Shown in pieces: positions 21 through 46,689 of a stretch of DNA of 64,000 nt; position 1 is the stretch's first letter; each line of letters opens with the position of its first letter. A program made the position numbers and the translations under genes. Where the stretch lies: assembly GCF_012396185.1 (NCBI RefSeq), contig NZ_JAAXOW010000002.1, positions 186,001 through 250,000 on the forward strand, read 5' to 3'. The DNA is from Sanguibacter hominis ATCC BAA-789 (GTDB lineage: Bacteria > Actinomycetota > Actinomycetes > Actinomycetales > Cellulomonadaceae). A model generated the notes under the pieces. The model was not told the DNA's origin, ran no database searches, and saw nothing but the letters and a program-made list of their open reading frames with translations.

Positions 21-1844
21 ATGGCGCTCCCGCACCACGACGGCTCCGAGATCTATGTCCAGCAAGGCCCCTACCAGCTCGGGTCCGTCCTCACGGTCCG
101 CGTGCGCGTGCCGCGCGGTTACGGCGAGACTGCCGTCCTCCTGCGCTTCGTCCAGGATGCCGAGCCCCGCACGGTGCGCACCGCTCTCGCGCACAGCGAC
201 GAGCACGACCACTGGTACGAGGCGCAGCTCCCGCTGCACAACCCGGTCACGAGCTACCGGTTCGCTCTCGTGCTGCCTGGCGACGTGCACTGGCTCAACG
301 CCCGCGGGGTCCACGACCGTGGCGTGACGGACGAGAACGACTTCCGCATCACGACTGCCGCTCCCGCGCCCGCGTGGCTCCACCACGCCGTCGTCTACCA
401 GGTGTTCCCGGACCGCTTCGCGCGGTCCGCCGCCGCAGACGAGCGCCCGCTGCCGGACTGGGCCGAGCCCGCCACGTGGGACGACGAGCCTGCCGCGCAC
501 GGCGCCCGCACAGGCAAGCAGCTCTACGGTGGTGACCTCGACGGCGTGATCGAGCACCTCGACCACATCGCCGGCCTCGGTGTGACGACGGTCTACCTCA
601 CGCCCATCTTCCCGGGAAGATCCGCGCACCGGTACGACGCGTCGACGTTCGACCACGTCGACCCGCTGCTCGGCGGCGACGACGCGCTCGCGCGCCTCAG
701 CGAGGCCCTGCACTCCCGCGGCATGCGGATCATGGGCGACATCACGACGAACCACACCGGTGAGGGACACGAGTGGTTCCACCGTGCCCGCACGGACGAG
801 AGCTGCGCCGAGCGCGACTTCTACTACTGGATCGACGGGGGACCGGGGTACGCGAGCTGGCTCGGGCACAGCAACCTGCCGAAGCTCAACTTCGCGTCGC
901 CGGAGCTCGGCCCGCGTCTGATCGACGGACCTCGCTCGGTCATCGGCAGATGGCTCGAAGCACCCTGGTCGCTCGACGGGTGGCGCGTCGACGTCGCCAA
1001 CATGACCGGTCGGTACGCCGACGAGGACCACAACGAGGACGTCGGCCGTCGCCTGCGCGCGACGCTCGCCGAGGTGAACCCCGACGCCGCGCTCATCAGC
1101 GAGCACTTCCACGACGCGCGGGGCGACCTGTCCGGCGAGACGTGGCACGGCAACATGAACTACACGGCGTTCTCGAACCCGGTGTGGACGTGGCTCGCCG
1201 CGCCGGACAACGGCATCCGGTACATGGGAGTCGAGGGGCTCGCGATGCCGCGCCGCACCGGTGCTCAGATGGTCGCCGAGATGCGCGACTTCGACGCCGC
1301 CGTCCCGTGGCAGGTGCTGCTGAACCAGTGGAACATGCTCGGATCGCACGACACCCCGCGCATCCGCACGGTCGTCGGCTCCCGCGAGATGCAGGAGGTC
1401 GCTGCCGGTCTCCTGTTCACGTACCTCGGCGTCCCCGCGATGTTCGCGGGCGACGAGCTCGGGCTCACGGGCACGACAGGCGAGCACTCGCGCGTCCCGA
1501 TGCCGTGGGACAGCCCAGACCGTCGGGACGACGTCATCCATGAGCGCTACCGCACCTTGGCGCGCCTGCGCGCCGAGCACCGTGCGCTGCGCGAAGGTTC
1601 GCTGCGCTGGGTCCTCACGGAGGACGACGCCGTGGGCTACGTCCGCGAGACGACCGACGAGGCGCTCCTCGTCGTCGTCGCGCGTGCCGCGTGGGCAGGT
1701 GCCGAGCTGCGCCTCGCGGTACCGGGCGGCGCGGCTGCGACGCTCTACGGCAGCGCGGACCTCGCGGTCACGGAGCGCGACGGCGCGACGAGCGTCGTCG
1801 TGCCGGGCGACGGGCCGGCGTTCGGGGTGTGGAGGCTGCGATGA
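21..1844 (+). CDS. GH13 alpha-amylase-family glycosidase (neopullulanase / cyclomaltodextrinase type)
   Basis: This is probably a cytoplasmic enzyme hydrolysing alpha-1,4 (and perhaps alpha-1,6) links of malto-oligosaccharides. Residues 1-115 look like the N-terminal beta domain (CBM34-like) of neopullulanases, and the (beta/alpha)8 barrel starts near residue 119 (VVYQVFPDRF). All four GH13 regions are visible: DITTNHTG at 240, GWRVDVANM at 320 (nucleophile Asp324), SEHFHD at 360 (acid/base Glu361) and GSHDTPR at 441 (Asp444). No signal peptide is seen. The 607-residue length fits the subfamily. The start is the first ATG in a frame open to the window edge, so a start further upstream cannot be excluded. 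Substrate specificity cannot be read from the sequence; an alpha-glucosidase is the main alternative. Confidence 0.88.
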   Translation: MALPHHDGSEIYVQQGPYQLGSVLTVRVRVPRGYGETAVLLRFVQDAEPRTVRTALAHSDEHDHWYEAQLPLHNPVTSYRFALVLPGDVHWLNARGVHDRGVTDENDFRITTAAPAPAWLHHAVVYQVFPDRFARSAAADERPLPDWAEPATWDDEPAAHGARTGKQLYGGDLDGVIEHLDHIAGLGVTTVYLTPIFPGRSAHRYDASTFDHVDPLLGGDDALARLSEALHSRGMRIMGDITTNHTGEGHEWFHRARTDESCAERDFYYWIDGGPGYASWLGHSNLPKLNFASPELGPRLIDGPRSVIGRWLEAPWSLDGWRVDVANMTGRYADEDHNEDVGRRLRATLAEVNPDAALISEHFHDARGDLSGETWHGNMNYTAFSNPVWTWLAAPDNGIRYMGVEGLAMPRRTGAQMVAEMRDFDAAVPWQVLLNQWNMLGSHDTPRIRTVVGSREMQEVAAGLLFTYLGVPAMFAGDELGLTGTTGEHSRVPMPWDSPDRRDDVIHERYRTLARLRAEHRALREGSLRWVLTEDDAVGYVRETTDEALLVVVARAAWAGAELRLAVPGGAAATLYGSADLAVTERDGATSVVVPGDGPAFGVWRLR

Positions 1845-3198: not shown

Positions 3199-5160
3199 GT
3201 GGCAGGTCTCATCAAGCGCGAGGACGTGGACGCGGTCCGCGAGCGGGCACGCATCGACGAGATCGTGGGTTCGTACGTCACGCTCAAGACGGCGGGCGTC
3301 GGCTCGATGAAGGGTCTGTGCCCCTTCCACGACGAGCGCACCCCCTCCTTCCACGTGCGGCCGCAGGTGGGCCGCTGGCACTGCTTCGGGTGCAACGAGG
3401 GCGGCGACGTCATCTCGTTCGTCCAGAAGATCGACGGTCTCGGATTCACGGAGGCGGTCGAGCACCTCGCGCAGCGCGTCGGCATCCAGCTGCGCTACGA
3501 GGAGGGTGGCGGGCCGCGCCGCTCGGAGGAGCCGGGCAAGCGCCAGCGCATCATCGAGGCTAACCGTACCGCCGCGCAGTTCTACGCGGAGCAGCTCTTC
3601 TCGCCGGGCGCGACGGTCGCGCGCGAGTTCCTGGCGCAACGCAGCTTCGACCGCGCCGCGGCCGAGACGTTCGGCGTCGGCTACGCGCCGCAGGGGTGGA
3701 GCGCGCTGCTCACGCACCTGCGTGCCAAGGGCTTCTCGGAAGCCGAGCTGCTCGCAGCGGGCCTCGTGTCCCAGGGCAACCGCGGCGTCTACGACCGGTT
3801 CCGCGGGCGTCTCATCTGGCCGATCCGCGACGTGACGGGCGAGGTCATCGGGTTCGGCGCGCGGCGCCTGTTCGACGACGACCAGGGCCCCAAGTACCTC
3901 AACACCCCCGAGACTGCCGTCTACAAGAAGTCACAGGTGCTGTACGGCCTCGACCTCGCCAAGCGCGAGATCGCGAAGACGAAGCGGGTCGTCGTCGTCG
4001 AGGGGTACACGGACGTCATGGCGGCGCACCTGTCTGGCGTCGGAACCGCCGTCGCGACGTGCGGCACGGCGTTCGGCAGCGACCACGTGCGGGTCGTGCG
4101 CCGCCTCGTCGGCGACACGTCGGCCGGCTCGGGCGTCCAGCTGGCGGGTGGTGGCTCGACGGGCGGCGAGATCATCTTCACGTTCGACGGCGACGCCGCC
4201 GGGCAGAAGGCCGCGATGCGCGCGTTCGCGGAGGACCAGCGTTTCTACGCGCAGACGTTCGTCGCGGTCGAGAAGAGCGGCATGGACCCGTGCGAGCTGC
4301 GGCTCGCACGCGGCCCCGAGGCGGTGCGTGCCCTCGTCGACGCGCGGCAGCCGCTGTTCGAGTTCGTCATCCGCACGACGCTCGCGACGTTCGACCTCAG
4401 CACCGCTGAGGGCCGCGTCGGCGCGCTGCGTGCCGCGGCGCCCGCCGTCGCGAGCATCCGCGACTCCGCACTCAAGCCGGAGTACACCCGGATGCTCGCC
4501 GGATGGCTCGGCATGGACGGCGAGACCGTGCGTCGCGCCGTCGGCTCGGCGCAGCAGGCAGGTCAGCGCGCCGCGCAGGGCCCGGGGGAGAAGCAGGCGC
4601 GGCCCGACGGCGAGCCGGGCCGCCACGCCGCACCGTCTGAGGCCTACCCGGCCGAGCGCGCCCCGGGCGCCTTCTCGCGTCCCGACCGCACCGACCCGGT
4701 CGCCCGTCTTGAGCGCGAGGTCCTCGAGGCGGTGCTGCAGCACCCAGGCTCCGTCCCGCCCGAGTTCGACGAGCTCGGCGCCGACGCGTTCTCCGTACCT
4801 GCCTGGCGCGCGGTGCACGAGGCGATCCGTGCTGCCGGTGGTGTGCAGACGACGACGGATCCGGCCCACTGGGTCTCCCGCGTCCTCGAGGAGGCCTCCG
4901 CTCCGGTGGCCGGGATCGTCAACGAGCTCGCGGTCGCACCGCTCCCGGAGGACCGGGAGTCCGCTGTCGAGGACTACGTGCGCGGCGTCGTCCGGTCGCT
5001 CGTCGAGATGCAGTACACGCGCCGCATCGCCGACCTGCGCTCAGCGCTCCAGCGTACGGACGCGCAGGCCGACCCCGACGGGTACCAGGCGATCTTCGCG
5101 GAGCTGCTCGGCATCGAGGCGCAGCGCCGCGAGCTGCGCTCGCTCGACCAGGGCGACTGA
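3199..5160 (+). CDS. dnaG: DNA primase DnaG
   Basis: Primase makes the RNA primers for lagging-strand synthesis and works with the replicative helicase. The 653-residue product has the N-terminal zinc-binding domain (Cys41, His44, Cys62, Cys65; motif HCFGC). The TOPRIM core has the catalytic Glu268 in VVVVEGYTD and the DxD of FDGDAAG near 330-332. A helicase-interacting C-terminal region lies beyond a Pro/Gly/Ala-rich linker around 455-500. Between the conserved RRL segment and the FDGD strand there is a Gly/Ser-rich stretch (SAGSGVQLAGGGSTGG) that looks about ten residues longer than in other actinobacterial primases I recall. The GTG start is preceded by a TAGACT hexamer rather than a ribosome binding site. 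It ends 4 nt from the convergent acetyltransferase gene. Confidence 0.97.
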   Translation: MAGLIKREDVDAVRERARIDEIVGSYVTLKTAGVGSMKGLCPFHDERTPSFHVRPQVGRWHCFGCNEGGDVISFVQKIDGLGFTEAVEHLAQRVGIQLRYEEGGGPRRSEEPGKRQRIIEANRTAAQFYAEQLFSPGATVAREFLAQRSFDRAAAETFGVGYAPQGWSALLTHLRAKGFSEAELLAAGLVSQGNRGVYDRFRGRLIWPIRDVTGEVIGFGARRLFDDDQGPKYLNTPETAVYKKSQVLYGLDLAKREIAKTKRVVVVEGYTDVMAAHLSGVGTAVATCGTAFGSDHVRVVRRLVGDTSAGSGVQLAGGGSTGGEIIFTFDGDAAGQKAAMRAFAEDQRFYAQTFVAVEKSGMDPCELRLARGPEAVRALVDARQPLFEFVIRTTLATFDLSTAEGRVGALRAAAPAVASIRDSALKPEYTRMLAGWLGMDGETVRRAVGSAQQAGQRAAQGPGEKQARPDGEPGRHAAPSEAYPAERAPGAFSRPDRTDPVARLEREVLEAVLQHPGSVPPEFDELGADAFSVPAWRAVHEAIRAAGGVQTTTDPAHWVSRVLEEASAPVAGIVNELAVAPLPEDRESAVEDYVRGVVRSLVEMQYTRRIADLRSALQRTDAQADPDGYQAIFAELLGIEAQRRELRSLDQGD

Positions 5161-34620: not shown

Positions 34621-34995
34621 CGGATGAGTCGGTCGGGCGGCCGCGTTGCACCTCTGGTGCACCGAGGAACGTCCGGGCTCCGTAGAGCAAGGTGGTGGGT
34701 AACGCCCACCCGGGGTGACCCGCGGGAAAGTGCCACAGAGAGCAGACCGCCCGTCCTCGGACGGGTAAGGGTGAAACGGTGGTGTAAGAGACCACCAGCG
34801 CGGCGGGCGACCGTCGCGGCTAGGTAAACCCCACCTGGAGCAAGACCAGACAGGGTGCGTTCGAGGGCTGCTCGCCCGAGCACCCGGGTAGGTCGCTGGA
34901 GGCGTGCGGCAACGTACGTCGTAGATGGATGGCCGCCCATCGGAGCGAGGCAACTCGCCCGTGGACAGAACCCGGCGTACAGACCGACTCATCCG
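34621..34995 (+). ncRNA. rnpB: RNase P RNA (class A)
   Basis: This is the catalytic RNA that trims tRNA 5' ends. The ends pair perfectly over 14 bp (CGGATGAGTCGGTC with GACCGACTCATCCG), forming helix P1. Conserved blocks are present: GAGGAACGTCCGGGCTCC near the 5' end, GGTAAGGGTGAAACGGTGGTGTAAGAG in two parts in the middle, and the 3' core ACAGAACCCGGCGTACAG. The 375-nt length is usual for actinobacteria. No clear terminator follows: the downstream sequence runs into the prophage remnant after about 100 nt, so the original 3' flank may have been replaced. Confidence 0.96.
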
Positions 34996-35076
34996 CACTC
35001 TGTGCCGGCCGCGAGACACGATCCCGTAGTCCCACTGACCGATGGGTGCCTCAGCGTAGTGCGCGCGGTACTTGGC

Positions 35077-36558
35077 CTACCTCCGCAGTCGCATCCTTGA
35101 CCGGGCAGGCCAGCTGTCTGCAAAATCCACCGCCCTCGCCGTGGAGATCGCCTGGATCTGCAGGAGGTCCTTCACCGCGGCGATCGCGGCCGGCAGGTCA
35201 GCGGGGAGAGCGGACCCGAGCTCGATCGTCGCGCGCGGCACCTCACCCGCGGGCAGGACACCGCCGACTTGGGCGAGACGCATCGCAAACCGCAGTAGGA
35301 GGGGGTACTTCTCGTCGCGGACGGTGCGCATCTCCCGCAGGAGGTTCTTCGCGGGGGCGAACCCGAGCTCGAGCGCGTACCCGGAGGGGACGTCGTTCGG
35401 ATGGACGCGGCCGAGGAGTGCTTGGGCGAGGCGGGCGTTGACGGCGAGACGGTCGAGGAGTGTGTCGACGTGCCCGGTGAGGGCGGTGAGGTTCTTCGAC
35501 GTGTCCATGAACGCGGCGGTGGCGTTCTCGGGGAGGCCGATCGCACCGCCGACGGGTGTGTTCTCCGGTGTGCCGGCGCCCGAGTAGACCATGTTCGGGT
35601 TGGCGCTCTGCGACGCCGCAGCCAGGTCGGTGTCGGTGTTGGCGAGGTCGTCGAGGATATGCGCGATGCGCAGCAGCAGGGACCTGCCGAACGTCCTGGT
35701 GGTGGAGGGGTCGTTGGGGACGTGCACGACGGGGATGAAGTCGATCCCGAGGTTCACCCAGCCATCCGCCAGGCCTTCGGATGGGGTGGTGATGGGGCGG
35801 GTGCCGGCCTTGCGGGCGAGGTCGGGCGAGTACACGTCGACGTCGGATAGGAGGTCCGCGGTGTCGTAGTCGACGACTCGGTACAGGCACACCCAGTCCG
35901 CCGTCCCGCCGTACGGGGGCGTCCACGGCTTTTCGGTCTTGCGCAGCTGCCACGTGTGGGGGCGGATCCACGTCGTACCGGTCTCGTCCTTCCATTCCCA
36001 GGCGAGGTGGACGGTGGCGGGGTATTCGTCGTATTCCCAGCCTGCGACGCGGGCACGGTTCTCGGTGTCGGGGAAGTAGAAGCCCGGGTCGAACACGCGC
36101 AGGCGGGGGCGATGCTTGGTGGGGGACCAGCCGAGGACGTACACGCCATCCCCGTCGCCGATCGAGTGCTCTTCGCCTTCGAGGAGCTTCTGCGTGAGCC
36201 GCTCCGCGTCAGCCCAGTCGGTGAGCCAGTCGACGAACGCGTCAGGGGCGGTGTCGTCGAGGGTGACGGTCTGCTCATCGCCGAGGAGGAGGGCGCGGGC
36301 GGTGTCGATGAGGAGGGATGGGTCGCCGTGTTCGCGGACGTTCTTGCCGCCTGCGTCGGAGTCGTCGCCTGCCTGCCAGACGCTTTCGGGGAGGTGGAAG
36401 CGGCGGGTGTTGGTGCGGTAGGCGCCGAGGACTCCGTATGCGGCGAGGCGTCGTCGGTCGGTCTGGTCGATCCACGTCTTGCCGGGGAGGGCTTCGTGGC
36501 CGCGGAGTTCGGGGATGTGCGCGAGGGGCGCGTACTGGTCGTTCAGGTAGGGCTGCAC
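35077..36558 (-). CDS. Phage portal protein (SPP1 gp6-like), 3'-truncated
   Basis: The portal forms the ring through which DNA enters the capsid. The 493-residue product follows the SPP1-type portals of actinophages: WIDQTDRRRLAAYG early, DGVYVLGWSP and the GFYFPDTENRARV region, then the long helices around NPNMVYSGAGTPENTPVGG and LRFAMRLAQVGG. The family normally continues past ISTARAV with another helix. Here it changes into a short unrelated tail (SWPARSRMRLRR) and stops, so the end is a fusion joint. GTG 36558 follows a GGAGG site. It is the last gene of the packaging operon. Confidence 0.85.
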   Translation of the reverse strand: MQPYLNDQYAPLAHIPELRGHEALPGKTWIDQTDRRRLAAYGVLGAYRTNTRRFHLPESVWQAGDDSDAGGKNVREHGDPSLLIDTARALLLGDEQTVTLDDTAPDAFVDWLTDWADAERLTQKLLEGEEHSIGDGDGVYVLGWSPTKHRPRLRVFDPGFYFPDTENRARVAGWEYDEYPATVHLAWEWKDETGTTWIRPHTWQLRKTEKPWTPPYGGTADWVCLYRVVDYDTADLLSDVDVYSPDLARKAGTRPITTPSEGLADGWVNLGIDFIPVVHVPNDPSTTRTFGRSLLLRIAHILDDLANTDTDLAAASQSANPNMVYSGAGTPENTPVGGAIGLPENATAAFMDTSKNLTALTGHVDTLLDRLAVNARLAQALLGRVHPNDVPSGYALELGFAPAKNLLREMRTVRDEKYPLLLRFAMRLAQVGGVLPAGEVPRATIELGSALPADLPAAIAAVKDLLQIQAISTARAVDFADSWPARSRMRLRR

Positions 36559-36649
36559 CGGGTGGCCTCCATCGCGTGATGCTGAGTCTCAGGAGTATTG
36601 GTTGCGGCATGTCACTCAAGTGAGCGCCCAAGGAAGTCGAAACAGGGGC

Positions 36650-37153
36650 ATGGGGAAGGGAGCGCAGAGGCGCCGCGCGGAGGATGTCGACGCCCTGTTG
36701 GAGCACCTCAGGTGGGCATGGGGCTTGGAGGTAGAGCGTGGATCGCGCGCTCGAGAGCTGGGGCTAGGAGTATTGGCCACGAACGGCCTCCTCCTGGCGC
36801 TACTGATCGAGGACGACGGATCGTTCGGGGTTTCTGGGCTCGATTGGATCCCGGCCTTCTGGCACTTCTTCTCGCTTGCGCTGGCCGTGTGGGCATTACT
36901 GCCTCGGCGGGCGAACCACCTCAACTACGACAACTACATTGACGCGTGGCGCGACCTAGAGCGGGACATGGAGGCGACCGCCGCGATCAAGGAATGCCTC
37001 CTGAGCGAGCTCCTCCTCGGGCCAACTCGGGACCATGCGCCGCTCGTGCAGCAACGGACCCGCAACACCGCGACCCTCGACCTGGTCAGCATCTCGGTGG
37101 CATGCCTCGGAGCCGCCATTGTCTCGCTTGCCGTTGTTACCTGGATCTCCTAG
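36650..37153 (+). CDS. Membrane protein on the opposite strand of the prophage (moron-like)
   Basis: The function is unknown. The 167-residue product has a basic, helical N-terminus, membrane segments at about 35-53 and 66-84, a 55-residue amphipathic cytoplasmic helix region (YDNYIDAWRDLERDMEA and following), and a third membrane segment at about 144-165. This is the shape of small SLATT-like or superinfection-exclusion membrane proteins, but I see no specific family motif. ATG 36650 is the best start; GTG 36620 is possible and would put TCACTcaAGTGA (36611-36622) over the start region. It is followed after 8 nt by a tiny gene. Confidence 0.65.
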   Translation: MGKGAQRRRAEDVDALLEHLRWAWGLEVERGSRARELGLGVLATNGLLLALLIEDDGSFGVSGLDWIPAFWHFFSLALAVWALLPRRANHLNYDNYIDAWRDLERDMEATAAIKECLLSELLLGPTRDHAPLVQQRTRNTATLDLVSISVACLGAAIVSLAVVTWIS

Positions 37154-37161
37154 GAGGGGCC

Positions 37162-37299
37162 TTGTCGAAAAGTACAGGCGGCGGAAAGTCCAACGGCAAG
37201 AAGCCTGCCGAGAAGCCAAAGCCACCCTCGAAGTTCCCCTGGCGGCCCACCAATCTCAGGGAAGGCTCGAAGGGCACGGAGACGCGAAAGCGGGACTAG
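37162..37299 (+). CDS. Very small Lys/Pro-rich protein, TTG start
   Basis: This 45-residue product is strongly basic (KSNGKKPAEKPKPPSKFPW) with no membrane segment. TTG 37162 is preceded by TAGGAGGGG, an excellent ribosome binding site, and lies 8 nt after the stop of the membrane-protein gene, so the two form an operon. The stop overlaps the end of the convergent terminase gene. Codon use is less GC-biased than host genes. It could be a partner of the membrane protein; nothing is known. Confidence 0.5.
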   Translation: MSKSTGGGKSNGKKPAEKPKPPSKFPWRPTNLREGSKGTETRKRD

Positions 37300-38780
37300 C
37301 GTCCGCGCATACCCCCCCACCGCCCACTTCCGGCCTTCCGCGCGGGGTTGACCTTGGTGTGATGCGGCTGGAACAACACCGTCAGCCCGTGCACGAGCGC
37401 GTCCACACGGTCCGGCGACGCACCCTCACCCGTCCACGTGAGCATCTGATCCTCGAGCTTCGACAGGCGGTCCGTGCCGTCGGCGGCGTGCTTCACGTGC
37501 CCCGTCTCGTACAGGGCGGCGATCGCTTCGGCGCGCGTGCGCTTGGACTGGACGGCGTGCACGCGCTGGATGCGCGGCATCAGCCTGCGCGTGTTCCTGC
37601 GTTCGGTGACGACGCGCCAGGCGGCGTTGAGCACCTCGAGGACCATCTCCCCACCCTGGTTGTCCTCGACGACGATGTCGGTGGCGTTCCAGTCGAGGAC
37701 GGCGTCCCAGGCGGCGCAGCCCCACTCGACAGGGGAGCCGCGGAGGGTGCGGTCGTCGAGGACCCAGCCGCGGCGTTGCGAGTCCATGCCCGTGACGACG
37801 ATGCCCGTCATGTCCGATGTCTTCTTGGAGGTGGCGGCGGGGTCGACGGCGACGACGATGCGCTGCAGGTCGTGATGGATCTCGCCGGTCTTGCCGCGGT
37901 TGGACTCGATCCACGGGGACTTCCAGACGGCGCCTTCGGCGGGGGTGGGGCGCTGCTGGTACAGGGCAGCCCACGTGCGAGTGGGGGCGTTGCGCTTGAT
38001 CGCCTCCCACTGCTCGCGGGTGCGCCCTCGGGCGGACAACATGAACTCACCCGCCTCGCGGCCGAGCTGGTCCGTGGCGGGGTCGTCGCACTGTGCGGGG
38101 ATGGATACGACGTCCCAGCGTGGCCCGTCTTCCGATGAGAGGAGGCGGCCGGCGAGGTCATCCTCGTGCCACCTGGTGAGGATGAGGATGACGGGCGCGC
38201 TGGGTGCGAGGCGGGTGGAGGCGGTGTCGGTCCACCAGTCCCAGACCTTCTCGCGGAAGGTGGGGGAGTCGGCCTGTTCGCGGTCCTTCACGGGGTCGTC
38301 GATGAGGAGGAGGTCGACGGGGCGTCCGGTCATGGCTCCGCCGACGCCAGCGGTGAAGACGCCGCCGTCGTGCTGGTCGAGCTGCCACTCGTGCTGCGCG
38401 GACAGGTCCGGACGGACTGAGAGGTTCAGGTCGCGGGCGTGCTGGGTGATGTCGTCGCGGATGGCGCGACCCCACCTGCGGGCGATGTTCGCTTCGTACG
38501 AGGCGACAGCGATGCGCAGGTCAGGGTTCTGGGTGAGGGCCCAGAGGGGGAAGCGGCGGGAGGCGCGTTGGCTCTTGCCTTCCTGCGGGGGCATGGAGAT
38601 GACGAGTCGTGAGTCAGGGGTGTTGAACGCGCGGACGAGTGCGGCGTCGATGACGTCGAGCGCGGGGGTTTGCCGGGTCTTGGGGTCGAGGAATGCCGCG
38701 AGGTCGCCGGGGGTGTCCCAGCGAGGTGGTGGTGCGGGCTCGAACAGGCGTGCGGCATGCTCCGCCCAGGAAGCGATCAC
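37296..38780 (-). CDS. Phage terminase large subunit
   Basis: This is the packaging ATPase and nuclease. The 494-residue product has a Walker A-like PPQEGKS at 64-70, Walker B LLLIDDP at 157-163, ILTRWHEDD as coupling motif, and an RNase H-like nuclease with acidic residues in VVAVDPAATSK and DIVVEDNQGG. Together these define a complete terminase. GTG 38780 is chosen because GGGAG lies 8 nt upstream; earlier in-frame codons overlap the divergent membrane gene. The start sites of the two divergent genes are only 15 nt apart. Confidence 0.9.
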   Translation of the reverse strand: MIASWAEHAARLFEPAPPPRWDTPGDLAAFLDPKTRQTPALDVIDAALVRAFNTPDSRLVISMPPQEGKSQRASRRFPLWALTQNPDLRIAVASYEANIARRWGRAIRDDITQHARDLNLSVRPDLSAQHEWQLDQHDGGVFTAGVGGAMTGRPVDLLLIDDPVKDREQADSPTFREKVWDWWTDTASTRLAPSAPVILILTRWHEDDLAGRLLSSEDGPRWDVVSIPAQCDDPATDQLGREAGEFMLSARGRTREQWEAIKRNAPTRTWAALYQQRPTPAEGAVWKSPWIESNRGKTGEIHHDLQRIVVAVDPAATSKKTSDMTGIVVTGMDSQRRGWVLDDRTLRGSPVEWGCAAWDAVLDWNATDIVVEDNQGGEMVLEVLNAAWRVVTERRNTRRLMPRIQRVHAVQSKRTRAEAIAALYETGHVKHAADGTDRLSKLEDQMLTWTGEGASPDRVDALVHGLTVLFQPHHTKVNPARKAGSGRWGGMRGR

Positions 38781-38783
38781 CGG

Positions 38784-38789
38784 TAGTCT
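38784..38789 (+). promoter_or_regulatory. Putative -10 hexamer of leaderless gene at 38796
   Basis: TAGTCT ends 6 nt before the ATG at 38796. It lies within the leader of the divergent terminase gene. Confidence 0.4.
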
Positions 38790-38795
38790 CCCACC

Positions 38796-39296
38796 ATGAC
38801 CACCGCGGACGAGATTAGGGCAATCGCAAGCGCGCTGGGGGGGATCGCGACCTTCGCGGTGATCCTCCAAGGGTCCTTCGATGGCTTGTCGCAACGGAAA
38901 CTGCTCGAGAAGGACCTAGCTATAGCGAGATCTCTCCCTCGTAAGTCGTCGATGCGCAAAAAACTCCTCGGCAGTATCGAGGGTCGCATCGATGCCCTTG
39001 TCGATCCTGACGTTGATCGGAGCACCCGGCAAGCCAAGTTGGCTGTGATCACGCTGGGCGTGGGGTACGTTGTGCTGCTTTGGGTGGCGGAGGACGGATC
39101 TCTCTGCCTGGCTGGGCTTGCCTCAGTGGGGGTAGTTCTACCGGCAGTTGGACTGTGGCTGAGCATGAGACGTCGAAGCAAGGCGCTAGGGGTCATCCAT
39201 GCCCGCCACTCAGGAGCCGAAGTCTCCGAGGCACGACTTCGCCGACGCGCTCCTGCTGTGCCGCCGTCAGCTGCAGATCACCCAGGATCGCCTTGA
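38796..39296 (+). CDS. Small membrane protein, opposite strand in prophage
   Basis: The function is unknown. The 166-residue product has membrane segments at about 9-27, 83-102 and 106-126, separated by a charged helical stretch (LLEKDLAIARSLPRKSSMRKK). Its C-terminal 35 residues are encoded antisense to the end of the terminase-small-like gene. Part of that tail may be tolerated read-through, because it is Arg/Pro-rich. It has no ribosome binding site but a TAGTCT hexamer 6 nt before the ATG. Base use is less GC-rich than the host. Likely a lysogenically expressed accessory gene. Confidence 0.6.
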   Translation: MTTADEIRAIASALGGIATFAVILQGSFDGLSQRKLLEKDLAIARSLPRKSSMRKKLLGSIEGRIDALVDPDVDRSTRQAKLAVITLGVGYVVLLWVAEDGSLCLAGLASVGVVLPAVGLWLSMRRRSKALGVIHARHSGAEVSEARLRRRAPAVPPSAADHPGSP

Positions 39297-39804
39297 TGAC
39301 CGCGGCCACCTGCTCACCCTGAGCCTCAGCCAGACGCACGCGACGCTCCTCCACGCCAGCACGCAACGCCGCCGTGCACACGGCGACAAGGTGCTTGCGC
39401 TCCCGCTCGTACAGGTCGTACCAGACCGACGTCGACGCCGTCTCCACCGTCTCCTCGATCGGGCCGTCAGCGGAGTCCGTCTGCTTCCACTTCGTCTTGC
39501 CCCACACGAGCTCGTCGCGCTCCACCTCGCGCACACGGTCGCGCAGCCAGTCCACATGCCCGGCCGTCCAGCGAACCTCCTCGAGCAGCGCCTCCGACGG
39601 CGACACGTCCCGAGACAGGCCGAGCGTAGTCACGGCCTTCTCAGCCTCGCGAGCCGCCTTCGCCTCCTCCACACGACGAGCAGCCGCAGCCTTCGCCTTC
39701 CGCGACCCCGACCCATGCACACGACACGTCGACGCACCCTCAATCGCATACCGCGCACACTGCACACCCGTGCTCTTCGCCTTCGCCGTGCACCGCTGCG
39801 CCAT
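39193..39804 (-). CDS. Terminase small subunit-like phage protein with CCCH zinc motif
   Basis: It probably recognises phage DNA for packaging or is an associated factor. The 203-residue product begins with Cys5-x10-Cys16-x10-Cys27-x2-His30 (MAQRCTAKA, VQCARYA, TCRVHG), a motif I recall at the N-terminus of many actinophage small-terminase-like proteins. Long charged helices follow (about 35-60 and 75-175). It lies upstream of terminase large in the same direction. ATG 39804 follows an AAGGGA site, and a pair of 17-bp palindromes lies 20-66 nt upstream. Confidence 0.65.
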   Translation of the reverse strand: MAQRCTAKAKSTGVQCARYAIEGASTCRVHGSGSRKAKAAAARRVEEAKAAREAEKAVTTLGLSRDVSPSEALLEEVRWTAGHVDWLRDRVREVERDELVWGKTKWKQTDSADGPIEETVETASTSVWYDLYERERKHLVAVCTAALRAGVEERRVRLAEAQGEQVAAVIKAILGDLQLTAAQQERVGEVVPRRLRLLSGGHG

Positions 39805-39823
39805 GCTCGGGTCCCTTCATGAG

Positions 39824-39840
39824 GTTCTGTGACACGGAAT
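39824..39840 (-). promoter_or_regulatory. Operator copy 1 (17-bp palindrome), terminase operon
   Basis: GTTCTGTGACACGGAAT matches the consensus ATTCCGTG-N-CACGGAAT at all but two positions. It lies 20 nt upstream of the ATG at 39804. Confidence 0.65.
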
Positions 39841-39853
39841 GGCCTTCATGGGG

Positions 39854-39870
39854 ATTCCGTGTCACAGAAT
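39854..39870 (-). promoter_or_regulatory. Operator copy 2 (17-bp palindrome), terminase operon
   Basis: ATTCCGTGTCACAGAAT has one mismatch to the consensus. Its centre is 30 bp from copy 1. Both copies are part of a ~27-bp direct repeat (39814-39840 and 39844-39870) that also includes CCTTCATG. Confidence 0.7.
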
Positions 39871-39875
39871 GCGGA

Positions 39876-39914
39876 ACTCCCCCCCCGACCCCGTGGTGTG
39901 GGGTTGGGGGGAGT
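39876..39914 (-). terminator. Terminator-like hairpin between the DUF gene and the terminase operon
   Basis: ACTCCCCCCCCGACCCC pairs with GGGGTTGGGGGGAGT (small wobble and bulge) across GTGGTGT. It would end the transcript of the gene at 39930-40154 before the operators. Confidence 0.55.
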
Positions 39915-39929
39915 GTCCGGTGTGGGGTG

Positions 39930-40154
39930 TCAGTCGGTGATCTCGATGGTGGTGCGTCCTCGCGAGTCGACGTCGATCTCGTGGCCTGCGGCGTAGAGCG
40001 TGATCTCGGTCTTGGGTCTGGAGTTGGCGATCCGCTCGTCTTCATGGTTGATCTGGGTGATGCGGCCGGTGATGGAGGTGCCGTCGGGGTGAGTGACGGT
40101 GGTCAGCTTCCCCAGATGCGCAGCGTTGAGGTCTGAGAGGTTGATCGTTGCCAT
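39930..40154 (-). CDS. Small phage protein of unknown function
   Basis: The 74-residue product reads as alternating beta strands (GKLTTVTHPDGTSITGRITQI, then KTEITLYAAGHEIDVDSRG), compatible with a small beta-barrel fold. It has no zinc motif or membrane segment. ATG 40154 follows an AGGGGAA ribosome binding site. A terminator-like hairpin lies just after its stop. I recall similar short strand-rich proteins in actinophage early regions but no function. Confidence 0.6.
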   Translation of the reverse strand: MATINLSDLNAAHLGKLTTVTHPDGTSITGRITQINHEDERIANSRPKTEITLYAAGHEIDVDSRGRTTIEITD

Positions 40155-40311
40155 GGCGGTTCCCCTGTCTGTCGGTGCCCGTCGTTGGGCGTGACGCCAA
40201 CGTAGCGGGAGAGGCGCTGTCACGGCACCTACTGCTTCGGGTGGCTACGGCGACGATGCAGGGACCAGGGGATGGGCGCGGCGAGGGTCAGGCGTGAGGC
40301 TCGCCTGCCGC

Positions 40312-40317
40312 TAGTGT
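40312..40317 (+). promoter_or_regulatory. Putative -10 hexamer of leaderless gene at 40324
   Basis: TAGTGT ends 6 nt before the ATG at 40324. Confidence 0.4.
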
Positions 40318-40323
40318 CGCCGC

Positions 40324-40626
40324 ATGGTCTCCGCTCTCGCAGCATCGCTCGTGATCTTCGGTACTGGTGCGCAAGCGGCTCTCGCGTTGCGCGCGTTGAC
40401 TACCGCGAGCTGGATGAGTGACGCGCTCGCCGTAGACGAACTGCGGTCGGAGGTTCCGTGGTGGCGTCCGCTTCGATGGATCCGGCACCGTCGTCTGGTG
40501 AAGGAGATCGTTGCGACGAGCCCACGGGAGCGTGGTGCGTGGAAGCGCACGCAGTGGGAGTTGCGGGCCTGGGCTTCGCTGCTTATGGGCGCTGGCTTCG
40601 CCTTGTGGGATGCGGTGTTCGGGTAG
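40324..40626 (+). CDS. Small two-helix membrane protein, opposite strand in prophage
   Basis: The function is unknown. The 100-residue product has a hydrophobic N-terminal segment (about 3-26), a basic central region (RPLRWIRHRRLVKE) and a C-terminal membrane segment (about 80-98). It begins without a ribosome binding site, with TAGTGT 6 nt before the ATG. It converges on the beta-clamp gene with no gap. The layout is like the other opposite-strand membrane genes of this element. Confidence 0.55.
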   Translation: MVSALAASLVIFGTGAQAALALRALTTASWMSDALAVDELRSEVPWWRPLRWIRHRRLVKEIVATSPRERGAWKRTQWELRAWASLLMGAGFALWDAVFG

Positions 40627-41721
40627 TCACCCGGCGAAGCGGATGGGGACGAGCAGGTACCGGTATGCGTTGACGAGGTCGCCGTCTGCGGTGACGCCGG
40701 TGAAGACGACGGGCTTGTTCGGGTGGGTGAAGCCGAGCTCGACGGTGGCGGTGTCGAGGGCGGTGAGGCCGTCGATGAGGAACGTCGGGTTGAACGCGAC
40801 GGCGATCGGGGCGCCAACGAGGGTGGCGGGGAATTCTTCGGTGGCGGTGGCGTCGTCTCCGGTGCCTGCGGTGAGCGTGAGGGTGTTCGTGTCGAAGGTG
40901 AGACGGACGGGGGTGTTGCGTTCAGCGACGAGGGCGACGCGCTTGACCGCCGCGGTGAGGTCGGCGACGTTCACCCGAGCGGTGATCGGCGTGTCGTCGG
41001 GGAAGAGACGGCGGACGGGCGGGTAGTCGCCGTCGACCTGCAGGGACGTAAGGGTGCGGGCGCCGGTGGTGAACGCGGCGAGCTGGTCAGAGGTGGCGAA
41101 CCCGACAGGGCCTGCGGTCGTCTTGGTGACTTCGGTGAGGGTGCGGGCGCGCAGCAGCCATTCACCGTCGAGGTCACCGTCGTGTGCGAGCTCGCGCAGG
41201 GCGAGCCTGTACCGGTCGGTGGCGAGGAGCGTGACCTTGCCGGGGGTGGCTTCGACCTTGATGCACGTGAGGAGGGGCAGGGTGTCGTCGCGGGATGCTG
41301 CGACGGCGACCTGGGAGACGGCGTGGGCGAGGGAGTGACCGTCGAGGGTGACGGTGCTCGCGGGCGCGGCCGGGAGGGCGGGGTAACCGTCGTGCGGCAT
41401 GGTCAGGAGGCGGAAGCGGGATGCGCCGCAGCGGATCGAGAGGCCGCCGTCGACCTCGAGGGTGACAGGCTTGCCCGGGAGCGCTTTGACGATGTCGGCG
41501 AGGAGCCGCCCGGAGACGAGCGCCGTGCCCGGGGTGGTGACGTTGGCGGTCACGGTCGTCGTGGTGGACGTCTCGTAGTCGTACGCGGACAGGGTCAGCG
41601 TGGAGCCGTCGGCGGTCAGGAGGATGCCTGCGAGGACCGGGGCTGCGGGGCGGGCCGGGATGGTGCGGGCGGTCCAGGTGACAGCGTCGGCGAGGACGTC
41701 GGAGGGGATGGTGAGCTTCAC
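40627..41721 (-). CDS. Phage-encoded DNA polymerase III beta clamp homologue
   Basis: Beta clamps encircle DNA and tether polymerases. The 364-residue product shows the three-domain clamp layout: an N-terminal KLTIPSDVLADAVTWTAR, a second domain starting near TVTLDGHSLAHAVSQVAVAASRDDTLPLLTCIKVE with ATDRYRLALRE, and a third with TEEFPATL, the FNPTFLIDGL loop and C-terminal YLLVPIR. It is complete, though slightly shorter than host clamps. GTG 41721 overlaps the stop of the preceding membrane gene (GTGA). Host dnaN normally lies by dnaA, so this is a phage copy, probably used with the adjacent DnaB-like helicase. Confidence 0.88.
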   Translation of the reverse strand: MKLTIPSDVLADAVTWTARTIPARPAAPVLAGILLTADGSTLTLSAYDYETSTTTTVTANVTTPGTALVSGRLLADIVKALPGKPVTLEVDGGLSIRCGASRFRLLTMPHDGYPALPAAPASTVTLDGHSLAHAVSQVAVAASRDDTLPLLTCIKVEATPGKVTLLATDRYRLALRELAHDGDLDGEWLLRARTLTEVTKTTAGPVGFATSDQLAAFTTGARTLTSLQVDGDYPPVRRLFPDDTPITARVNVADLTAAVKRVALVAERNTPVRLTFDTNTLTLTAGTGDDATATEEFPATLVGAPIAVAFNPTFLIDGLTALDTATVELGFTHPNKPVVFTGVTADGDLVNAYRYLLVPIRFAG

Positions 41722-41921
41722 GGGATTCGCTTTCGGTTGAGGGCGTACCAGGTCAGGCCTGTGGTGAGGATGAGGGGCCACGTCCACGCGAGGGCGGTGG
41801 CGAGGAGGGCGGCGCGTAGGTCGGTGGGGCGGTGCTCGAGGTGGGCGAGTCTGGCGGCGCAGAGCATCGCTGCGGCCCACATGAGGGTGACGAGCGCGTA
41901 GAACATCACGACGGCGGTCAC
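41718..41921 (-). CDS. Small membrane protein in the clamp operon
   Basis: This 67-residue protein has two hydrophobic segments (about 4-24 and 38-58) joined by a short polar loop (LAHLEHRPTDLR) and a basic end (LNRKRIP). GTG 41921 overlaps the stop of the Cys-rich gene (GTGA) and its own stop overlaps the clamp start (GTGA), so translation is coupled on both sides. No family is recognised. It is too small for a transporter; a holin-like or regulatory role is possible but unsupported. Confidence 0.6.
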   Translation of the reverse strand: MTAVVMFYALVTLMWAAAMLCAARLAHLEHRPTDLRAALLATALAWTWPLILTTGLTWYALNRKRIP

Positions 41922-42139
41922 GGCAGGCCCGCGCGCTGCGACTCGGCCTGCCGGCACTGGAACTCGTGCACGATGCTGGCGGTGCGGGTCTCGAAGCTGA
42001 CGTGGCAGACCGGGCAGTGCGAGTCGCGTTCGCGGCATCGTGTGCAGCCGACGGGGCAGCCTCCGCTGACGGGTGGGAAGTCGCAGTGCGTGCACAGGCC
42101 GGTGCGGGTCTTGCGCGCACCGCAGATGCAGTGGCTCAT
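41918..42139 (-). CDS. Cys-rich small protein with several zinc-binding motifs
   Basis: The 73-residue product carries eleven cysteines in pairs: CIC, LCTHC, GCPVGCTRC and HCPVCHVSF followed by a His and Cys at IVHEFQC, the last resembling a C2HC zinc finger. It could bind nucleic acid or protein. ATG 42139 overlaps the stop of the RHH gene (ATGA). Its stop overlaps the membrane-protein start. Too compact for an enzyme. It is part of the four-gene coupled operon. Confidence 0.7.
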   Translation of the reverse strand: MSHCICGARKTRTGLCTHCDFPPVSGGCPVGCTRCRERDSHCPVCHVSFETRTASIVHEFQCRQAESQRAGLP

Positions 42140-42315
42140 CGGGGCTCCTCGAGGGTGATCTGACGGCGTTCGCAGTCCTCGGCGATGAGGCGGCGAACGT
42201 AGGTGGAGGCGGATGCTTGTCCGCGTGCGAGGTCGACCATGCGACGTCCGTCTTCGGTGAGGCGGACGTTGAGGAACGTGGTGTGGGGTTGGGCGCCCTC
42301 GGGGGTTCGTGCCAC
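42136..42315 (-). CDS. Ribbon-helix-helix (CopG/Arc-type) DNA-binding protein
   Basis: This is a 59-residue transcription regulator. The ribbon strand TTFLNVRLTEDG is followed by helix MVDLARGQAS, the turn and second helix STYVRRLIAEDCERR, the standard RHH pattern in which the NVRL side chains contact DNA. GTG 42315 is the only start giving the full ribbon. It lies 27 nt downstream of a perfect 17-bp palindrome and 47 nt from a second one. RHH dimers usually bind such tandem palindromes near their own promoter, so autoregulation is likely. The stop overlaps the next gene (ATGA). Confidence 0.75.
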   Translation of the reverse strand: MARTPEGAQPHTTFLNVRLTEDGRRMVDLARGQASASTYVRRLIAEDCERRQITLEEPR

Positions 42316-42341
42316 CCGGCGATGGTCGGGGAGGGGGTGTC

Positions 42342-42358
42342 ATTCCGTGTCACGGAAT
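42342..42358 (-). promoter_or_regulatory. Operator copy 3 (perfect 17-bp palindrome), RHH operon
   Basis: ATTCCGTGTCACGGAAT is a perfect 8+1+8 palindrome 27 nt upstream of the RHH start codon. Confidence 0.75.
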
Positions 42359-42361
42359 CGG

Positions 42362-42378
42362 ATTCCGTGTCACGTTAT
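42362..42378 (-). promoter_or_regulatory. Operator copy 4 (17-bp palindrome, one half degraded), RHH operon
   Basis: ATTCCGTGTCACGTTAT keeps one perfect half site. Its centre is 20 bp from copy 3, and it overlaps the stop codon of the helicase gene. Confidence 0.65.
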
Positions 42379-43646
42379 TGGTGGGCCATGTCGACGATCC
42401 GTGAGTAGTGCATCTGGTGCGCGAGGTGGATGGTCCCGCCGGGCCCGTTGCGCTGCTTGCCGACGACGAAGTCCACCTCGCCGGCACGGGCGTGCTCGGG
42501 GTCGACGGCGTCTGGGCGGTGCAGGAGGATGACCGTGTCCGCGTCCTGCTCGAGCCCGCCAGCCTCGCGAAGGTCCGCGATCGTCGGCGCCTTGTCGACG
42601 GCGCGGCCCTTCTCTGGTCGGGCGAGCTGCGCTGCCGTGACCACGGTGAGGTTCTCCGCCTGCGCGAGGCGCTTGAGGCCCTTCGTGTACTCCTCAATGG
42701 CGAGGCGGCGGTTCTCAGCCTTGGGGACCTGGGCGATCTGGACGTAGTCGAGTAGCAGCAGGTCCGGCCGATGCTTCTTCACGGACGCGCGAAGGTCGGC
42801 GAGGGTGGACTGTCCGTCATCAACGATGTGCAGGCGTGCTCCTCGCAGGCGCAGGCCGGCTTCGGTGATGCGATGCCAGTCGTCGTCGCGCAAGTCGCGG
42901 GAGATCATCCGGTCCATCGTGACGCGGGCCTCGGCTGCGAGGAGGCGCTTCATTAGCTCGACCGCGGACATCTCGAGGGAGTGCAGGACCACGGTCTTGT
43001 CCTGGTGGATGGCTGCGTGGCGTGCTAGGTCCACGAGGGTGACGGACTTTCCGATGCGTGGTCGGGCGCCGACGATGACGAGCTGGCCGGGCTGCATCGG
43101 GTGCAGGAGTCGCGCGGCGTCGGCGTAGGGCCATGCGATCCCGGGTGCGACTTCTTCGGGGTCGAGGTCGTCGAGAACGGCGGCGAGGAGGTCTTCTGCG
43201 AGGGTCGTGGTTTGGGTGCCGGTTGGTCGGTGTGAGGCTTCGATCTCGGCGAGGGCGATACCGACCAGGTCGCCGACGTTGCCTTCACCGGACTCGGCGA
43301 TCTGGGCGATGCGCGTGCCTGCGGTCGTGAGGCGTCGGCGGGCGGCGTTCTCGACGACGATCCGCGCGTACGACGTCGCGGCGGCCGGGTTGCTGCCCTC
43401 GGTGATGAGCTCGGCGATGGATGGCAGGCCGCCGACGGAAGCGAGGGTGCCGCGGGTCTTGAGGTGGTCGACCACGGTCACCGCGTCGATCGCGGTGCCT
43501 GCTTCGTCGAGGTCGCGGATGGCCGCCCAGATGGTCTCGTGTGCGGGGAGGTAGAAGTCGTCTGGCTGGACGGCGCGGAGGGCTTCTGGTCGGGGTTGGT
43601 TGAGCGCCGCTCCGATGAGGGCGCGTTCGGGTGCCGGGGCTGGCAC
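42375..43646 (-). CDS. Phage DnaB-like replicative helicase
   Basis: This is a hexameric 5'-3' helicase for phage replication. The 423-residue product has an N-terminal DnaB domain (about 5-105, with YLPAHETIWAAI), a linker, and a RecA-like C-terminal domain with Walker A GARPRIGKS at 193-201, Walker B LLLLDYVQ with Asp300, and the arginine-finger region near the C-terminus (KQRNGPGG). It is somewhat shorter than host DnaB. GTG 43646 is the start. It lies downstream of the nuclease-like gene and a strong terminator, so it has its own promoter near CGTGTTATCACG (about 43667-43678). Confidence 0.9.
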   Translation of the reverse strand: MPAPAPERALIGAALNQPRPEALRAVQPDDFYLPAHETIWAAIRDLDEAGTAIDAVTVVDHLKTRGTLASVGGLPSIAELITEGSNPAAATSYARIVVENAARRRLTTAGTRIAQIAESGEGNVGDLVGIALAEIEASHRPTGTQTTTLAEDLLAAVLDDLDPEEVAPGIAWPYADAARLLHPMQPGQLVIVGARPRIGKSVTLVDLARHAAIHQDKTVVLHSLEMSAVELMKRLLAAEARVTMDRMISRDLRDDDWHRITEAGLRLRGARLHIVDDGQSTLADLRASVKKHRPDLLLLDYVQIAQVPKAENRRLAIEEYTKGLKRLAQAENLTVVTAAQLARPEKGRAVDKAPTIADLREAGGLEQDADTVILLHRPDAVDPEHARAGEVDFVVGKQRNGPGGTIHLAHQMHYSRIVDMAHQ

Positions 43647-43752: not shown

Positions 43753-44847
43753 TCAGTCGTAGTAGTGCGCTGTCTTCCTGATGTGCTCCGCGTGCGCGTA
43801 GATCTCGTCGAGCGAGTCGATCGGGTGCCGCGTCTCCACCTTCGCCTCGTCGAACAGGCCGAGGTACTTCTGCGACGTGTTGAAGTGCAGGCGAGCGAGC
43901 GGCTTGCGGTTGTTGTCGTCGAGCAGGATGCCCATGTAGCTCTTGGTGTCGCGGTGCACGATACGGGCCGGCGGGACCTCACTGCATGCGATGGCGCGGA
44001 TGATCTGGAACCCTTCGAGTTCCTCGATGGTCGTTGTTATGCCCCGGTCGTCCCTGGCGTCCTCGGCGTCAACGGCCTGTTCTGCGGCAGCAGTGCCGGT
44101 CATGGGAGCGGTCGTGGTGTCCGGGTAGCGCTGCCCGCCGAGCGCGGCCTTGATGCGGTCGTTGACCTGGTCTGCGAGGAACTGGTTCATCGCCTTCGGG
44201 ACGAGGGTGGAGAACTGTTCACGGACCTTCTGCGTGTAGGAGCCGTCGTAGACGCGGGCAGTGAGGGCCTTGACCCATTCGGCGTCCGGATCACGGAACT
44301 GCCCCGCCAAGACCCGCTTGAGTGCTCCGATGTACTTGAGTTCCTCGGCAGCGTTGACGACGGAGTCGAGGTCGAACGAGTCCTTGGTGAGCTTCTGGAC
44401 CTCCGGGATGAGGGTCTCGTCAAGGTCTGACAGATCGAGCTGGAGGAACGGCTTGTCGTCCATGCGATTCGGCCGGTCGAGGTCGGTGAAGAAGTGGAAC
44501 TGCTCGCCGTTGGTGAGGATTGCGATGCGGGCGTTAGTGGTCGCGAAGTAGCGGAAGAGCTGCGAGGCGTGGTTGATGCCGAGTGGGCTACCGACAGTCT
44601 TCGCTTCGATCAGGATCTGGACTTCGCCGTCCTTGACGATGGCGTAGTCGATCTTCTCGCCTTTCTTCGTGCCCACGTCCGCGGTGAACTCCGGGACGAC
44701 TTCTTGGGGGTTGAAGACGTCGTAGCCGAGGACGAGGGAGATGAACGGCATGATGAACGCGTTCTTGGTCGCCTCCTCTGTCTGGATGGAGGGCTTCTGC
44801 TGCTCGATCTTGGCTGCGAGTGACGCGAGCCGGTCCGCGATGTCCAC
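43753..44847 (-). CDS. Standalone type I restriction R-subunit N-terminal-like nuclease (HSDR_N / COG4748)
   Basis: This is probably a PD-(D/E)xK nuclease-fold protein. Residues 20-85 hold the HSDR_N core: a helical QTEEATKNAFIMPFI segment, then Asp67 (KIDYAIV), Glu81 and Lys83 (LIEAK), the catalytic D...ExK signature. The 364-residue length covers this domain, a helical middle and a strand-rich C-terminal domain (EGFQIIRAIACSEVPPAR and LARLHFNTSQKYLGL). There is no helicase domain and no methylase gene next to it, so it is not a complete type I system. ATG 44847 is the start. Proteins like it are known in prophages and chromosomes; anti-phage defence is possible but unproven. Confidence 0.82.
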   Translation of the reverse strand: MDIADRLASLAAKIEQQKPSIQTEEATKNAFIMPFISLVLGYDVFNPQEVVPEFTADVGTKKGEKIDYAIVKDGEVQILIEAKTVGSPLGINHASQLFRYFATTNARIAILTNGEQFHFFTDLDRPNRMDDKPFLQLDLSDLDETLIPEVQKLTKDSFDLDSVVNAAEELKYIGALKRVLAGQFRDPDAEWVKALTARVYDGSYTQKVREQFSTLVPKAMNQFLADQVNDRIKAALGGQRYPDTTTAPMTGTAAAEQAVDAEDARDDRGITTTIEELEGFQIIRAIACSEVPPARIVHRDTKSYMGILLDDNNRKPLARLHFNTSQKYLGLFDEAKVETRHPIDSLDEIYAHAEHIRKTAHYYD

Positions 44848-46193: not shown

Positions 46194-46311
46194 CCAGCGG
46201 TTCTGGTCAACGCAAAGATCTTGTCGTGCGGGCGTTGAAAGGCTGTGCGAGAGTGAGACTCGGCCGAGTCCGCAGCTTTGCGGTGCGCAATCAGAGGAAG
46301 AGGGGCTCGTG

Positions 46312-46689
46312 ATGAGCGACGAACATGGTGGCCGGAACGGGGATCCCGTCGGCGGCATCAACATGGAGCTGTCCGAGGTCAAGAGCCGCGTCGTCCTGTG
46401 GGGCGAGATCGATGGGGCGCTGCGGAGCGAGGCGAGCGGGGTTCTCGCGAGCGCGCTCGAGCGTGAGCTCCCCGTCGTCATCGACCTCGAGTCCGTGACG
46501 TTCATGGACTCGACCGGCATCGCGTTCCTCGTGCAGTTCTGCACGATCGGCGCAGACGAGGGCATCGACGTCGTCGTCCGCAAGCCTCCTCAGCTCGTCC
46601 GCGACGTCATCGAGATGCTCGGCATCGCCGAGCTGCTCGGCCTGACCGGCGACCCGGCTCCCGAGGGCCGCACCACCCTCGCGAGCTGA
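46312..46689 (+). CDS. STAS-domain anti-sigma factor antagonist (RsbV-like)
   Basis: Anti-anti-sigma factors sequester an anti-sigma kinase when unphosphorylated and so free a stress sigma factor. The 125-residue product is a single STAS domain with the phosphorylatable Ser67 in FMDSTGIAFL and the preceding strand VVIDLESVTF. ATG 46312 follows GAGGAAGAGGGG; GTG 46309 is an alternative. No anti-sigma kinase or sigma gene is adjacent. A terminator follows. An in-frame upstream extension overlaps the previous gene and is not conserved. Confidence 0.88.
   Translation: MSDEHGGRNGDPVGGINMELSEVKSRVVLWGEIDGALRSEASGVLASALERELPVVIDLESVTFMDSTGIAFLVQFCTIGADEGIDVVVRKPPQLVRDVIEMLGIAELLGLTGDPAPEGRTTLAS

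Follow-up and report, generated by a model that had tools for sequence, protein, structure and literature searches.

What is the function of four 17-bp palindromes that stand, in two pairs, in front of a replication-type operon and a packaging operon of the same phage-like element? This element lies in a 64-kb stretch (the window, which here means the whole stretch of DNA analysed) of the 2.98 Mb genome of Sanguibacter hominis ATCC BAA-789, namely, positions 186,001 to 250,000 of contig NZ_JAAXOW010000002.1. One pair precedes a gene for a 59-residue protein of ribbon-helix-helix (RHH) type, whose operon ends with a DnaN-type sliding clamp; the other precedes a gene for a protein resembling the small terminase subunit (TerS), followed by the large subunit (TerL) and the portal. 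Judging from sequence comparison, we consider it likely that the palindromes are operators of the RHH-type protein, which would control both its own clamp operon and the packaging operon.

Paired palindromes in front of two operons

An earlier note on this DNA had reported the same palindrome four times, and a search for ATTCCGTG-N-CACGGAAT with up to 3 mismatches gave four matches in the window, where 0.11 were expected by chance (sd 0.35, largest 2); none of 100 shuffles of the window held four or more. The copies are not identical, however, since only one is exact and the other three have 1, 2 and 2 mismatches. Their centres, at 39832 and 39862 (30 bp apart) and at 42350 and 42370 (20 bp apart), are spaced as the note had claimed, and both pairs are indeed upstream of minus-strand genes, 20-66 bp before the start of the TerS-like gene at 39804 and 27-63 bp before that of the RHH gene at 42315. 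These spacings amount to 2.9 and 1.9 helical turns of 10.5 bp each, roughly the three and two that had been proposed, although in relatives distances of 19 and 33 bp are found.

The palindromes are specific to the element. In the host genome the 17-mer, with up to 2 mismatches, occurs at four places, all of them within the element, the outcome that the note had named as supportive, and the reversed control at none. A looser 15-mer, TTCYGTGNCACRGAA, again with up to 2 mismatches, has 13 places in this genome versus 5 for its control: four in the element (three exact, one with 2 mismatches) and nine outside, none exact. The six outside places that were inspected comprise two copies of a tRNA-like sequence and two flagellin genes (both kinds recognized by eye) and two places on C3. 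Across 15 other genomes the 17-mer at the same tolerance was found at six places, three of them in RHH-bearing elements (two in G005, one in G044); the reversed control had one place over the 16 genomes given to the 17-mer scan.

The candidate regulator appears, from its sequence pattern, to be an RHH protein, and we call it RHH-type, which implies no membership in a named family. A profile search at E 1e-5 recovered it in 7 of 221 genomes of the family, own included (G000, G005, G044, G073, G259, G261 and G230), and these seven members form alignment A1. Weak profile matches were obtained to a NikA-like Pfam entry (two of the seven, best E 0.031), to phrog_14312 (four of the seven, best E 0.00057) and, in a PDB profile search, to 2kke (E 0.054) and then 3h87_C (E 0.32). 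A model predicted from the single sequence as a monomer places helices at residues 21-32 and 38-51 after a coil stretch, with a pLDDT of 68.

The mechanism that we propose is as follows. The RHH-type protein would be made from a compact operon between the helicase and the packaging genes; it would bind the paired palindromes before its own gene, probably as dimers of dimers, as well as one or two palindromes before the TerS-like gene, and would govern its own operon (RHH, Cys-rich, membrane and clamp genes) together with the TerS-TerL-portal operon. It would most likely be an autorepressor keeping the two operons at a fixed level or to a fixed time, and repression is favoured over activation because of the precedent of MobC from plasmid RA3 (PMC4175270). 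Overlaps between the four genes from RHH to clamp are in keeping with a single operon. A strong hairpin (39868-39935, -33.7 kcal/mol, z -3.4; in the G005 locus L059, -33.8 kcal/mol, z -3.1) separates the TerS-side sites from the upstream genes in both the window and G005, and the packaging genes may therefore have their own start, although a simple terminator scan does not call the hairpin at 39872-39919.

The sites and the RHH-type gene in related elements

Beyond the family genomes, two IMG/VR phage contigs (L123 and L124; 38 and 58 kb) encode an RHH-type protein 95-96% identical to that of G044, and gp16 of Curtobacterium phage Sunfish is a weak match (36% over 47 residues, E 0.03), making nine further elements or phages with a relative besides the window. 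That of G005, from the same genus, is 70-72% identical and lies in an element that is itself a decayed remnant. Other searches added little: the window protein had no relative in viral_contigs and one weak match among phage records, the L062 protein had none among phage records and the L061 protein none in viral_contigs, while at the level of the order 4 of 396 genomes matched, all from the same family and none of them new. As a DNA pattern, two palindromes at most 31 bp apart were absent from viral_contigs and present at three loci in genome_contigs, one in an Acidimicrobiia metagenome-assembled genome (with no obvious phage genes in the 1 kb read) and two on stretches of a single Bacteroidales one.

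The sites are kept at both places. All five elements that have both an RHH-type and a clamp gene (window, G005, G044, L123, L124) carry sites at both operons, namely, a pair of palindromes on the RHH side, spaced by 19-20 bp, and one or two palindromes on the TerS side; they represent three lineages, as G044, L123 and L124 are closely related. In L059 the RHH-side sites, at 11017 and 11037, have the 20-bp spacing of the window, and the TerS side has two, of which that at 8498 has 3 mismatches and the other, degenerate and 33 bp away, has 5. The G044 element is split over contigs, L063 and L096, which we infer to be one element: L063 has an RHH-side pair 19 bp apart (2 and 4 mismatches), and L096, at the start of its contig, has GTTCCGTCACACAGATA before the TerS-like gene. 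The pairs of L123 (3 and 3 mismatches) and L124 (2 and 3) are also 19 bp apart, and the single TerS-side site of each is identical to that of L096 even though their TerS-like proteins differ, with 52% and 69% identity to that of the window. This shared TerS-side site has 5 mismatches to the window consensus, yet it is the best hit in L096 of the matrix described below. In the window, L059, L063, L123 and L124, then, sites stand no more than 100 bp 5' of the RHH gene, adjacent to it as an autoregulatory operator would be. An RHH-clamp operon with conserved palindromes, for which the earlier note had suggested a search of related prophages, is present in the four relatives among the five elements, but the clamp is not a constant partner, as no gene for it was found in the available stretches of L060, L061, L062, L093 and Sunfish (in the latter, the first 11 kb).

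The sites also co-occur with the RHH gene. We tabulated 25 elements (26 loci, L096 being counted with L063), several of which, many RHH-less ones included, are partial stretches. At least one site with up to 3 mismatches is present in six of the ten RHH-bearing elements (window, L059, L063, L123, L124 and L062) and in none of the 15 loci with no RHH gene in the available stretch; palindromes kept in the absence of the RHH gene, which the earlier note had named as evidence to the contrary, were sought in these 15 loci, many of them partial, and not found. The contrast is clearest in L012, where DnaB, clamp, TerS and TerL follow in the same order, with 49 bp between the DnaB and clamp matches and neither RHH gene nor site, and G261 holds both an RHH-bearing (L060) and an RHH-less (L104) element.

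A matrix was then trained on seven sites, four of the window and three of G005, each read on both strands, and run blind on the RHH loci of six further relatives. The best hit up to 100 bp 5' of the RHH gene ranked first in L063, second in L062 and Sunfish, third in L060, fifth in L061 and 36th in L093. The combined log score of -24.6 was reached by none of 2000 scrambled palindromic matrices (mean -7.1, minimum -22.5), a count that is no strict probability, as the six loci are related. The first-ranked hit of L062 and the second-ranked of L060 are at the probable TerL start codon and possibly coding, and the first-ranked hit of L060 lies in the coding start of another gene.

Two further observations concern sites in these relatives. 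In the 61-kb genome of Sunfish (L057) a variant palindrome occurs at 323-339 and 495-511 (both before gene 1) and at 5106-5122 (before the RHH-type gene 16); the variant motif was built from these three sites and hence is no independent test. In L061 (10207-10251) and L093 (9359-9404), perfect 8- and 9-bp inverted repeats have their 3' arm over the RHH start codon, which suggests translational control in these two loci. As a general mechanism this was dropped, since folding and a stem count reveal such a repeat only in L061 and L093 (L063 being borderline).

Weighing the proposed joint regulon against other explanations

The three comparisons above, namely, the five elements with sites at both operons, the 15 RHH-less loci and the 2000 matrices, together with the restriction of the palindromes to the element, support in part the joint regulon of the earlier note; a working regulon at this very locus they do not, because the element of the window is a remnant. 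Several results weigh against the regulon as such. The relatives are not independent, least of all L063, L123 and L124. Of the loci in the matrix test, L093 alone fails; where its site would be expected it shows no more than a GTGTGACAC core, and the site of L061 is weak. The site of L062 with up to 3 mismatches is at the TerL start, away from the RHH gene, and in L060 and L062 a second site covers the probable TerL start codon, an overlap that may reflect coding constraint. RHH-less DNA is not free of similar motifs: L012, L106 and L108 have one hit each at 4 mismatches (shuffled DNA has about 0.35 per 20 kb), L104 shares with L060 a 12-bit matrix hit, which in both covers the initial codons of one and the same conserved gene, and the remaining three of the six 17-mer places in other genomes are in RHH-less G038 (two) and G086 (one), outside the element loci analysed. 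A scan for sigma-70-like promoters near the sites found none. As for the protein, which the earlier note had simply called a ribbon-helix-helix protein, its sequence pattern and weak matches agree with that fold, but a Pfam scan gave no curated RHH family above the cut-off, and a structural search with the poor model gave no useful fold match. Finally, a 17-mer equally matches the operator length of helix-turn-helix (HTH) repressors.

One alternative is that a cI-like HTH repressor, lost or encoded elsewhere, used the palindromes as its operators, with the RHH gene as one of its targets. Classic HTH phage operators resemble odd-centred 17-bp palindromes paired about 20 bp apart, so that both shape and pairing would suit; a truncated element may have lost its repressor gene, and in Sunfish gp13, annotated as HTH, is encoded three genes before the RHH-type protein. 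The sites, however, follow the RHH gene rather than the DnaB-TerS-TerL core, the Sunfish motif variant is directly before the RHH-type gene, and there is no HTH family among 10 scanned window proteins, the full gene content of the relatives not having been compared. We therefore regard a lost HTH repressor as unlikely, although it is the foremost of the alternatives. Somewhat less probable still is that the sites serve DNA processing and are recognized by the RHH-type or TerS-like protein, be it as a partition-like site, as iterons for replication or as the point where packaging starts. RHH proteins also serve plasmid partition and relaxosomes, and here one pair is at a helicase gene and the other at a TerS-like gene, close to replication and packaging functions. 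A dual role of an RHH-superfamily protein has been described (PMC4175270). Yet a TerS-like gene without an RHH gene never has a site with up to 3 mismatches, the distances from the gene starts at both places are those usual for operators, and no ParA-like family is present in the scanned window proteins, though Sunfish has a ParB-N-like gene.

That the RHH-type protein is an antitoxin of a Cys-rich or membrane toxin, with the palindromes used for that autoregulation only, we consider very improbable. RHH antitoxins do autoregulate through operators, as MazE6, which is reported to bind an 18-bp operator (PMC9477884), and the next gene, encoding the Cys-rich protein, overlaps the RHH gene. Nevertheless, L060-L062 have no Cys-rich ORF after the RHH gene (by eye), the identical type of site is also found before the TerS-like gene, and 59 residues leave little space for a toxin-binding tail.

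The proposed control of both operons by the RHH-type protein can also be compared with known systems. P22 Arc and Mnt, among others, are phage-encoded RHH repressors, similar in size, that act on phage genes through palindromic operators; they control immunity or antirepressor genes, whereas here the targets would be a clamp and a packaging operon, and our analysis turned up no sequence relationship to them. MobC of plasmid RA3 is an RHH-superfamily dimer that autoregulates its operon through an imperfect palindrome with two 8-bp arms (PMC4175270), and resembles the present case in being a small RHH-type protein with a palindrome before its own operon. Unlike the present case, it belongs to plasmid transfer, has one operator and also stimulates conjugation, with no packaging operon as a second target; sequence membership with MobC is not claimed. 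The extended start-associated sequences (ESAS) of cluster K mycobacteriophages, which precede some of the phage genes, are imperfect inverted repeats of 17 bp that come in pairs of varying spacing (PMC3203893), again paired 17-bp units before genes of actinobacterial phages. In ESAS, however, the two units together make up one inverted repeat, a 13-bp start-associated sequence (SAS) at the start codon accompanies nearly all of them, and several genes per genome have them, whereas here each unit is itself palindromic and three or four sites per clamp-type element track one gene. A further case is Sunfish, whose gp16 ('DNA binding protein') is a weakly related RHH-type protein with a variant palindrome just before its gene, two genes before the ParB-N-like gene and then TerS and TerL; unlike in the window, no clamp gene was found in the first 11 kb. 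In the open-licence literature, to which the search was limited, we found no published system of this kind, either for RHH repressors with terminase operators or, judging by titles and opening lines of abstracts, for RHH proteins of actinobacteriophages.

The element, its borders and the meaning of the proposed regulon

On the minus strand, the genes for an endonuclease and a DnaB-type helicase are followed by the sites at 42342-42378 and the RHH-type, Cys-rich, membrane-like and clamp genes, then by a gene for a 74-residue protein, the hairpin, the sites at 39824-39870 and the TerS-like, TerL and portal genes (Table 1). Small Cys-rich ORFs are seen by eye at the equivalent position in L059 and L063, and an ORF similar to the 74-residue protein is also 5' of TerS in L123 (by eye). 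The clamp shares 60% identity with the DnaN of the host. A stretch made up of TGACACCCC and, a little further on, GACACTC recurs in the window (about 39932), L059 (8601) and L060 (4682), each time where the gene preceding the TerS-like one ends. Three small antisense ORFs on the plus strand (36602-37153, 38796-39296 and 40324-40626), membrane-like by eye and with no Pfam or PADLOC match, sit between the portal, TerL, TerS-like and clamp genes and may be added cargo genes.

Table 1. Features of the element and of its left border, in window coordinates.
Feature	Position	Strand	Basis and remarks
Host rnpB (RNase P RNA)	34625..34995	+	similarity to genus-mates runs out no more than about 6 bp from its 3' end; the element starts here
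Portal protein	35077..36558	-	E 0.0037; 61% identical to L062 portal, residues 1-477; left end of element
Terminase large subunit (TerL)	37296..38894	-	family matches; longest ORF, real start probably near 38780
TerS-like protein	39193..39804	-	phrog_3678 (function not annotated), E 5.9e-49; next phage gene upstream of TerL
Palindrome 4, operator-like, 5' of TerS-like gene	39824..39840		2 mismatches
Palindrome 3, operator-like, 5' of TerS-like gene	39854..39870		1 mismatch
G+C-rich hairpin, strong, terminator-like	39872..39919	-	folding; without long T run
Small protein, 74 residues	39930..40154	-	internal ATG start; last gene before hairpin
DnaN-type sliding clamp, 364 aa	40627..41721	-	family match, phage family phrog_947
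Membrane-like protein, 67 residues	41718..41921	-	by eye; L059 counterpart 42% identical
Cys-rich protein, 73 residues	41918..42139	-	PF13453 zinc-ribbon E 0.012, below cut-off; overlaps RHH stop
RHH-type protein, 59 residues, candidate regulator	42136..42315	-	sequence pattern, weak profile matches; GTG start
Palindrome 1, operator-like, 5' of RHH gene	42342..42358		pattern search; exact, ATTCCGTGTCACGGAAT
Palindrome 2, operator-like, 5' of RHH gene	42362..42378		2 mismatches; over DnaB stop codon
DnaB-type replicative helicase	42375..43646	-	family matches; directly upstream of RHH-side sites
Phage endonuclease, HSDR_N-type	43753..44847	-	family matches, phrog_4225

DNA similarity to genus-mates is lost at 34996-35001 and returns at 46223 (G003) or 46391-46395 (G005, G002). 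The interval between these borders is short in two of them, about 0.4 kb in G005 and about 1.3 kb in G002, so this strain has most likely acquired some 11 kb by insertion at the rnpB 3' end. In G003 the interval holds about 5 kb of unrelated DNA, including a transposase-like and a transporter-like ORF (by eye), and such differing contents make the rnpB 3' end look like an insertion hot spot. Tyrosine integrase PF00589 has two matches in the host genome, both outside the element, serine integrases not having been searched for; we take the two to be of XerC/XerD type. No capsid or tail family was found among 15 scanned ORFs of the element and no duplicated attachment site at its right end, and we take the element for a prophage remnant of about 11 kb.

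Autoregulation by RHH proteins through palindromic operators is already a known kind of control. What would be new, if our interpretation is true, is a phage regulon that unites a sliding-clamp operon and a packaging operon under one tiny protein. For most actinobacterial phages, to our knowledge, no regulator responsible for the timing of replication and packaging has been identified, and the idea of such a regulon has become testable now that the protein, its sites and several relatives are named. It is tempting to go further, and more tentatively, to the possibility that the RHH-type protein is a dedicated switch at the junction between replication and packaging in a group of actinobacterial phages, which would sense its own level via the paired palindromes and tie the supply of clamp to the onset of packaging, with an operator code that may have drifted together with the protein as far as Curtobacterium phages.

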